A stretch of DNA of 64,000 nucleotides, from positions 372,001 through 436,000 of the forward strand of contig NZ_OX443569.1 in NCBI RefSeq assembly GCF_947539375.1, given 5' to 3'. This stretch comes from Lactobacillus isalae (GTDB taxonomy: Bacteria > Bacillota > Bacilli > Lactobacillales > Lactobacillaceae). The notes under the pieces were generated by a model, which was not told where the DNA came from, did no database searches, and was given only the letters and a program-made list of their open reading frames with translations. Made by a program: the position numbers and the translations under genes. This document shows, piece by piece, positions 23,611 through 62,666 of this stretch; position 1 is the first letter of the stretch, and every line of letters begins with the position of its first letter.

Positions 23611-23904
23611 TTATGCAGCTTCGACATTAAAAATATCGTTTAAATCAATAATTCTTACTATATTGTTATCGTAGCTATCTAATACAAAGCGACCTGCAGA
23701 TGTTCGCTTTATTAATTGCCCAATTTCTGTTTTTCCGTTTTGATAAGTAAGTAGAATGTATTCTTTATGAAAGAGCGCGTGCTCTAGAATTCGAATAATT
23801 TTGCCTGGATCTTGAGCAAAGGTAGTAAGCTTATTAATATTATAGGTAAAGAAATAATTATAGATTTGCTTACTATAATTATTAAGCGACTTTAAAAAAT
23901 TCAT
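23611..23904 (-). CDS. Small LexA-controlled protein, YolD-like C-terminal half (tentative)
   Basis: A 97-residue protein transcribed from its own promoter. The N-terminal half is helical (LKSLNNYSKQIYNYFF). The C-terminal half has the strand pattern of small Sm-like/YolD domains: HKEYILLTYQNGKTEIGQLI, then RFVLDSYDN and RIIDLNDIFNVE. YolD proteins in Bacillus are encoded next to LexA-regulated Y-family polymerases. Here no polymerase is adjacent, but the promoter carries a LexA box that matches the Gram-positive consensus almost perfectly. RBS AGAGGA lies 7 bases from the ATG. The family call is by eye; the regulation is well supported by the sequence. Confidence 0.65.
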   Translation of the reverse strand: MNFLKSLNNYSKQIYNYFFTYNINKLTTFAQDPGKIIRILEHALFHKEYILLTYQNGKTEIGQLIKRTSAGRFVLDSYDNNIVRIIDLNDIFNVEAA

Positions 23905-23947
23905 ATCTCATTCCTCTATATATCCCGAACTTGCGTTTGCACTATGT

Positions 23948-23976
23948 ATTATACGAACAAATGTTTTTAATTGCAA
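23948..23976 (-). promoter_or_regulatory. LexA (SOS) operator inside a promoter for the reverse small gene
   Basis: On the minus strand TTGCAA (-35, 23976-23971), a 17-base spacer and TATAAT (-10, 23953-23948) form a near-consensus promoter. The spacer contains CGAACAAATGTTTT (plus-strand 23954-23967), which fits the Gram-positive SOS box CGAACRNRYGTTYC at 13 of 14 positions. LexA bound there would sit between the -35 and -10 boxes. Confidence 0.75.
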
Positions 23977-61619: not shown

Positions 61620-61658
61620 TAAAAACTGGTAGGAAAATATTTTCCTTACCAGTTTTTT
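61620..61658. terminator. Bidirectional terminator between the UDG-like gene and lexA
   Basis: A 16-bp stem (61622-61637 with 61640-61656, one bulged T) with A and T flanks, overlapping the lexA stop. Confidence 0.85.
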
Positions 61659-62280
61659 AGTCGATGTTATTACGATATAGCCCTACGACCTTACCTAAAA
61701 TTTGAACCACAGGTAAAATAATTGGATCCATTGTATCATTCTCAGGTTGCAAGCGATAGTAGCCATCTTCCTTGAAGAATCTCTTAACAGTTGCTTCGTT
61801 ATCTTCAGTCATTGCAACAACAATTTCACCATTGTTTGCGGTAGATTGTTTTCGAACAATAACGTGATCGCCATTCAAAATTCCTGCATTGATCATTGAC
61901 TCACCATGAACACGCAACATGAAAAGTTCACCTGCATCGTTTTCAAGATCAGGCGGAAGTGGGAAATATTCATCGATATCTTGAACCGCTAAAATTGGTT
62001 GACCAGCAGTTACTACGCCAACTACTGGAATATCTTTAGGCTTAATACCTAAAGCTTCTCTTCCTTTTTCAGTTACTTCAATTGCTCGTGGCTTGGTAGC
62101 ATCTTTTAAAATTAGACCTTTCTTTTCAAGACGCGCTAAGTGACCATGAACGGTTGAGGTTGAAGATAAGTCAACTGCGCTACAGATCTCTCGAACTGTA
62201 GGAGGAAAGGCACGTTCCTCAACGGTATCGTATATAAAGCGTAAAATTTCTAATTGTTTACTTGCATGTGGTTCAGTCAT
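61657..62280 (-). CDS. lexA: SOS repressor LexA
   Basis: The 207-residue repressor has an N-terminal winged helix-turn-helix (1-65, [22 protein letters not shown]). The self-cleavage site is Ala92-Gly93 in VTAGQP. The catalytic dyad is Ser128 (HGESMI) and Lys166 (ATVKRF). RBS GGAGAAAAG. Its own promoter overlaps a LexA-like box, implying autoregulation. A second, stronger LexA box in this window is at 23954-23967. Confidence 0.97.
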
Positions 62281-62310
62281 AATCTTTTCTCCATTTAATT
62301 ACTTAATAGT

Positions 62311-62350
62311 ATTCTAACAAAAAAAATCTTTCTCAGCAAACAGGCGTTCT
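62311..62350 (-). promoter_or_regulatory. lexA promoter with overlapping LexA operator
   Basis: On the minus strand TTGCTG (62339-62334), 17-base spacer, TAGAAT (62316-62311). CAAACAGGCGTTCT (plus strand 62337-62350) matches the SOS consensus at 12 of 14 positions and overlaps the -35. Confidence 0.6.
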
Positions 62351-62417
62351 TAAGAGTTGAGCCTTTTTTTATTGCTATAATTAGGGTAAACTAACATTGT
62401 TTAGTGAGGTGTTTATT

Positions 62418-62666
62418 ATGGACAAAAAAGAAGAAGAGAAATTAATTAAACGAATTAATGAATTAACTAAAATTAGTAGAGAACGTGAATTAACTCCTGA
62501 TGAGTTAGAAGAACGTAAGAAATTAAGATCTGCTTTTCTAGAAAACTTCCGTGCTGGTTTTAGACAACAATTAGAAGATACTGTTGTAATTGATAAGGAT
62601 GGTAAAGAAGTAACTTCAGAAAAAGCTAAAGAAGCACAACGTCGTAAAGGATTAAGAAAAGATTAA
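62418..62666 (+). CDS. DUF896 (YnzC) family protein
   Basis: An 82-residue helical-hairpin protein of the YnzC/YnzC-like family. MDKKEEEKLIKRINELTKISRERELTPDELEERKKLR and NFRAGFRQQLEDTVVID are typical. In Bacillus, ynzC lies next to lexA and its relatives, as here, and is expressed in the SOS region. An upstream in-frame start at 62397 precedes the GTGAGGTG ribosome site, so the ATG at 62418 is used. TATAAT at 62376-62381 may be its -10. Confidence 0.9.
   Translation: MDKKEEEKLIKRINELTKISRERELTPDELEERKKLRSAFLENFRAGFRQQLEDTVVIDKDGKEVTSEKAKEAQRRKGLRKD

Follow-up and report, generated by a model that had tools for sequence, protein, structure and literature searches.

The closest described counterpart of the gene analyzed here, named X, is lp_1611 of Lactiplantibacillus plantarum WCFS1, a gene opposite the opu genes that encodes a hypothetical protein, carries a LexA/DinR motif, and was 32.9-fold upregulated with peroxide (PMC2174512). 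In the passages of that report consulted here, lp_1611 figures as an unknown with a motif and as a possible transcription regulator, with no mention of a family, a fold, a second box, or its conservation. Its neighbor by number, lp_1612, is gmk1 according to the relevant passage of PMC8236982. The order gmk, X, opu-like genes (opu recognized by eye) was found at four of our loci (L102, L106, L113, and L138), and since lp_1611 is numbered next to gmk1, it would by position be the orthologue of X. Within the terms of our literature search, PMC2174512 was the sole report found on this orthologue. For Lactobacillaceae, 13 LexA operons have been predicted, and, going by the portion of that study consulted, X may already be among its predicted targets (PMC3616900). 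The newness of the findings below is limited by the published induction of lp_1611 and possibly also by this existing regulon list.

We analyzed X in a window of 64,000 nucleotides from Lactobacillus isalae (contig NZ_OX443569.1, positions 372,001 to 436,000), where it lies between recN and gmk. A sequence-only reading of this window had described a LexA-regulated orphan gene for a stand-alone DNA-damage-response protein. That description was right in substance and is supported with corrections, as there are two boxes, the protein is placed in a sister family of YolD, and the gene is widespread, making the finding broader than one orphan gene.

Gene X and its promoter in the window

The features of the locus are listed in Table 1. 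The 97-codon reverse-strand frame and the promoter TTGCAA-17-TATAAT are both present as first described; promoter-like sites by themselves number 5 in that 1.2-kb stretch versus 4.5 expected, which is no excess over chance. A terminator shared with recN had also been proposed. It stands as far as the strong hairpin fold is concerned, with a fold energy of -28.6 kcal/mol and z values of -7.2 on the plus and -5.5 on the minus strand, and not in a simple terminator scan with a loop limit of 8, which found none.

Table 1. Features of the X locus (positions in the window)
Feature	Position	Strand	Basis
T-rich-flanked hairpin, probable bidirectional terminator for recN and X	23550-23606		fold z
Gene X (97 codons)	23611-23904	-	ORF with ATG start, homologues
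AGAGGA, putative ribosome-binding site 7 nt ahead of the X start codon	23912-23917	-	read from sequence
LexA-type box 2, CGAACTTGCGTTTG on +, perfect	23926-23939		motif scan; relatives
-10 hexamer TATAAT	23948-23953	-	promoter scan
LexA-type box 1, CGAACAAATGTTTT on +, in the promoter spacer	23954-23967		motif scan
-35 hexamer TTGCAA	23971-23976	-	promoter scan

The SOS-type box recognized earlier, CGAACAAATGTTTT, departs from the motif CGAACNNNNGTTYG at one of its ten specified positions. A second box, CGAACTTGCGTTTG, lies 28 bp from it, matches perfectly, and had been missed. Given a start 7 nt after the -10 hexamer, box 2 would occupy transcript positions +2 to +15 or so; as the -10 lies between the boxes, LexA would cover the -35/-10 spacer as well as the expected start region. 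The first box had been rated a better match than the one at lexA, which does not hold, since box 1 and the lexA-side box (62337-62350) have one mismatch each; it is the second box that has none.

Could such boxes be chance matches, with X outside LexA control? Taken singly, near-matches abound in this AT-rich window (44 boxes with up to two mismatches versus 56 expected; not significant), and the motif is not enriched genome-wide, with 3 exact sites versus 5 in the reversed control and 7 sites of RAACNNNNGTTCG versus 28. Two of these seven sites are the X box pair, and a third is located some 70 bp upstream of what by eye is a recA-like gene in the same genome. The pair, however, is rare: when the window was dinucleotide-shuffled 100 times, a pair with up to two mismatches in each box appeared in a single shuffle (strand counted) and a pair with the real total of at most three mismatches in none. 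Throughout the genome of the window, the tandem pattern is seen a single time.

Further boxes were seen in this genome. An exact CGAACGTAGGTTTG box (G000:C1:714294-714307; L127) stands just before a 356-codon gene judged by eye to be tyrosine-recombinase-like, and GAACATACGTTCG (G000:C1:855835-855847; L129) directly precedes the TATAAT of a 381-codon gene, which is a candidate LexA target. Another exact box (G000:C1:726420-726433; L128) lies between two convergent genes, with no obvious promoter.

Conservation of X and the twin boxes in Lactobacillaceae

A single-sequence search with X matched 40 of 397 Lactobacillaceae genomes, and a 24-row profile matched 186 of them, in 20 of 40 genera, so that X is not the local orphan it had been taken for. 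The tandem-box pattern alone was found in 209 of the 397 genomes, with 3 reversed-control sites among the matches listed. About half of the sampled genomes carry X or the tandem-box promoter; if our reading is true, common food and gut bacteria share a widespread part of the DNA-damage response that has received very little study.

For a closer comparison, 69 loci, one per genome, were chosen by protein match, and boxes were counted afterwards. They comprise 29 loci from the single-sequence search (L011 to L039; L040, a fragment with stops, was dropped) and 40 hand-picked for diversity from the profile matches (L085 to L124). Two boxes were present at 66 of the 69 loci and one box at the other three (L022, L025, and L124), compared with 0 of 1,171 other stretches of the same loci that passed the two-box test; the box is thus conserved across relatives, and as a tandem. 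The spacing in the 66 two-box loci is 27 bp in 39, 28 bp in 17, and 25 to 34 bp in the remaining ten, with TATAAT or TATACT between the boxes in 63. X itself diverges fast, with identities down to 13%, and the proteins form 29 clusters at 50% identity. Since 28 of these clusters include a two-box member, kinship does not explain the conservation of the boxes.

Twenty further regions were fetched mostly from the tandem-site list and are separate from the above count. Eighteen adjoin gmk, 16 of them with an intact X-like frame, one with a frame interrupted by a stop (L146), and one cut by a contig end (L143); L144 and L145 have tandem boxes and neither X nor gmk. A stricter tandem pattern, which does not match the window's own X promoter, was found in 55 of 128 genomes. 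Many of its sites lie away from X and without TATAAT, so other genes also have twin boxes.

Genomes without X bear on whether the boxes regulate gmk rather than X. No X match was obtained in 8 of 25 sampled Lactobacillus genomes. All eight have gmk, and the recN-gmk gap is readable in six; four of these gaps are short and without X, and two (L257 and L258, in G359 and G192) hold a different forward frame of 145 to 146 codons. None of the six contains a box with up to two mismatches, which means that boxes and gene are absent together there, where gmk stays. Conversely, twin boxes are kept at X in L177 to L179, with no gmk found in the fetched 5.3 kb. The box-free gaps rule out boxes belonging to gmk, and the shuffles together with the counts of 66/69 versus 0/1,171 rule out chance boxes; the probability that X is not under LexA control on either ground is practically negligible.

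X is very probably regulated through a double LexA operator. The LexA control proposed earlier gains from the conserved tandem boxes and from the motif and peroxide induction published for lp_1611 (consulted passages of PMC2174512), from which we infer LexA dependence of X.

Fold and family of the X protein

Database searches with the protein of the window gave little. Pfam yielded no family up to an E value of 10, NCBIfam and PADLOC assigned no family, and a phmmer search of the single protein against PDB had no match. The sole PHROGs match, phrog_33703 (endolysin; E = 0.044), was discarded as not significant. The structural model (mean pLDDT, 81.8) shows an N-terminal helix followed by a helix and a five-stranded Sm/WYL-like barrel, and among solved structures it comes closest to WYL domains, Sm proteins, and Hfq.

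These neighbors could suggest that X is an Hfq-like RNA-binding protein that would adjust mRNAs in the SOS response. Hfq is indeed the top Foldseek match of the model (E = 1.7e-3) and the top sequence-profile match in PDB (E = 0.08, not significant), and Hfq/Sm proteins likewise have a helix and then a five-stranded barrel. With a second aligner, however, WYL domains score at least as high as Hfq (many folds have no VIA-align entry, and such an absence is uninformative), and X differs from Hfq/Sm proteins in its nonsignificant profile match and its SOS-type promoter. We consider such a role very unlikely. The WYL domains of PafBC, DriD, CapW, and BrxR have the WYL fold in common with the X model; the short X protein could not accommodate their DNA-binding domains, is not matched by the WYL Pfam model, and shares 10 to 15% identity with them.

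Resemblance of the C-terminal half to YolD had been suspected from the sequence, and both profile comparison and structure prediction bear this out, as homology over that half and as a predicted Sm/SH3-like or WYL-like barrel. In hhalign, the C-terminal half reached a probability of 96% and a score of 52.9, compared with at most 20.4 in 40 column shuffles; the 96% refers to alignment A7, with YolDs found by PF08863, and alignment A6, which includes YolDs found with the X profile, gives 97%. YolD proteins (PF08863; YolD, YqjX, and Staphylococcus aureus SACOL1986) have the same C-terminal helix-plus-barrel, a similar predicted topology (compared with a weak YolD model, mean pLDDT 68), and LexA control. 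X differs from them in several respects. A motif of DR, 1 to 3 residues, and KW, read from alignments A6 and A7, is present at the N terminus of 12 of 13 YolDs and in 0 of 48 X-type members, as well as 0 of 17 and 0 of 14 proteins of two groups outside the family. PF08863 does not match the X of the window and is not among the 25 families listed, of 26, for the 48 members. X lacks an adjacent Y-family polymerase and is mostly basic, unlike YolD, for which 6 of 8 compared proteins are not above pI 8. Across 201 genomes, the PF08863 search gave no match above the cut-off and 14 weak ones: 11 that adjoin a match to a Y-family polymerase, one (L079; E = 0.0036) that is itself an X, and two that are neither. 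X as a canonical YolD was therefore rejected for want of the motif and of a PF08863 match above the cut-off, and for the same two reasons it is placed in a sister family. In our reading, X makes up a stand-alone family of its own within the YolD/WYL superfamily, to which it very probably belongs.

In agreement with the earlier description, no polymerase gene adjoins X in the window; the genome has one Y-family match, a 378-residue frame far away (G000:C1:72812). An obligate UmuC partner was rejected on these grounds. X might nevertheless be a UmuD/YolD-like subunit of this single, distantly encoded polymerase, as part of a split mutasome. The C-terminal homology to YolD fits this idea, as do the X of L079 that is itself a weak, below-cut-off PF08863 match and the Y-family polymerase found in 31 of 31 Lactobacillus genomes examined, whereas the missing N-terminal YolD motif in all 48 members does not, nor does the fetched 3.5-kb locus of the polymerase, which has no box with up to two mismatches. 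The portion of PMC6511836 consulted cuts both ways: it argues that YolD is the UmuD counterpart and describes S. aureus YolD as encoded apart from the polymerase, both being LexA controlled, and it reports that YolD is not enriched beside YqjH-type polymerases. In genome G124, X occurs together with a second Y-family gene elsewhere that is followed by a YolD-type gene, and a box pair lies about 60 to 100 bp before this second polymerase match. X is thus an addition there and not a displaced YolD, nor is it the sole YolD-like partner of the second polymerase. On balance, a split mutasome appears unlikely.

Homologues in other Lactobacillales and a proposed role

A 48-row X profile matched 173 of 295 Lactobacillales genomes, in 49 of 74 genera. 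In a sample of the class, 7 of 131 genomes matched, all of them Lactobacillales, with a profile built from one family. From the 173 matched genomes, 40 loci outside the family were hand-picked, comprising 20 X-type, 14 box-poor, and 6 YolD-type loci. The X-type loci (f2, f5, and f7) stand alone and, scored with a slightly looser pattern, have two boxes in 15 cases, one in 4, and none in 1. The box-poor group (f3, f4, and f9) has no box at 13 loci and a single box at 1, and its profile-profile probability against X is 97.95%.

A ydbC-like gene was found in the fetched stretch of 12 of the 14 box-poor loci, divergent from the X homologue and either adjoining it (six loci) or about 2 kb away (six loci). 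Among the 69 Lactobacillaceae loci, 8 likewise have ydbC, again divergent, between gmk and X, and this shared position links the box-poor group to X. Wherever both genes were found, they are divergent and adjacent or about 2 kb apart (20 of 20 loci: L186 to L192, L194, L239 to L241, L243, L095 to L097, L108 to L110, L112, and L114). No ydbC match was obtained in the window's genome or in 11 further genomes, which is weak evidence of absence. The ydbC product matches PC4 (PF02229) and PDB entries including YdbC of Lactococcus. The Lactococcus protein has, by the title of a reference, reportedly been solved bound to single-stranded DNA.

From these observations, we propose that RecA on single-stranded DNA would lead to LexA self-cleavage and thereby to strong induction of X. 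With one LexA operator in the promoter spacer and the other immediately past the expected start, X would be tightly off beforehand. The small, soluble, usually basic product, with its N-terminal helix and a YolD/WYL/Sm-type helix-plus-barrel domain, would go to single-stranded DNA or stalled forks and aid repair or bypass there, acting without a polymerase of its own. We put the probability that X is such an SOS-induced, stand-alone nucleic-acid-binding damage-tolerance factor at somewhat below one half (about 45%). Its fold class and regulation are well supported; its action on nucleic acid we infer from the fold relatives, the charge, the regulation, and the ydbC neighborhood. More tentatively, X could found a distinct Lactobacillales SOS effector family, a free-standing YolD/WYL-type barrel that is uncoupled from translesion polymerases, stands under a conserved double LexA operator, and recognizes single-stranded nucleic acid, either jointly with the PC4-type YdbC or in its place; the ydbC gene is close to the locus in several families. 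If our reading of X is true, YolD-like barrels have a role that needs no mutagenic polymerase next door. Presence, loss, and box-free states among relatives make the question directly testable.

Division inhibitors of the YneA/SosA type have a membrane-spanning segment, and in Bacillus the SOS division inhibitor gene yneA stands beside lexA. In the window, a DUF896 gene is divergent from lexA (61657-62666), and the space between the two is too small for a yneA-like gene, so that an SOS division inhibitor is not at the Bacillus position here. X might then be a brake on cell division or the cell cycle, a functional stand-in for YneA, SosA, or SulA, and its double operator, its fast divergence, and the strong induction published for lp_1611 (consulted passages of PMC2174512) would suit such a role. 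The highest 18-residue mean hydrophobicity in any of the 48 members, however, is 0.58 (mean, 0.33), under the rule-of-thumb limit of 0.6 for a membrane segment, and the lack of a box at 13 of the 14 loci in the box-poor group would be odd for a brake. Moreover, we know of no division inhibitor with a YolD/WYL-type barrel. A division brake is quite unlikely, and the stand-alone damage-tolerance factor remains our preferred reading.

Among the six YolD-type loci outside the family, five have a Y-family polymerase match nearby. At L231, a YolD-type gene is accompanied by a LexA-type box, and the fetched 5.2 kb contain no match to a Y-family polymerase. In another Lactobacillales family, loci of two genomes (G447 and G480) display symmetrical twin boxes, present on both strands.
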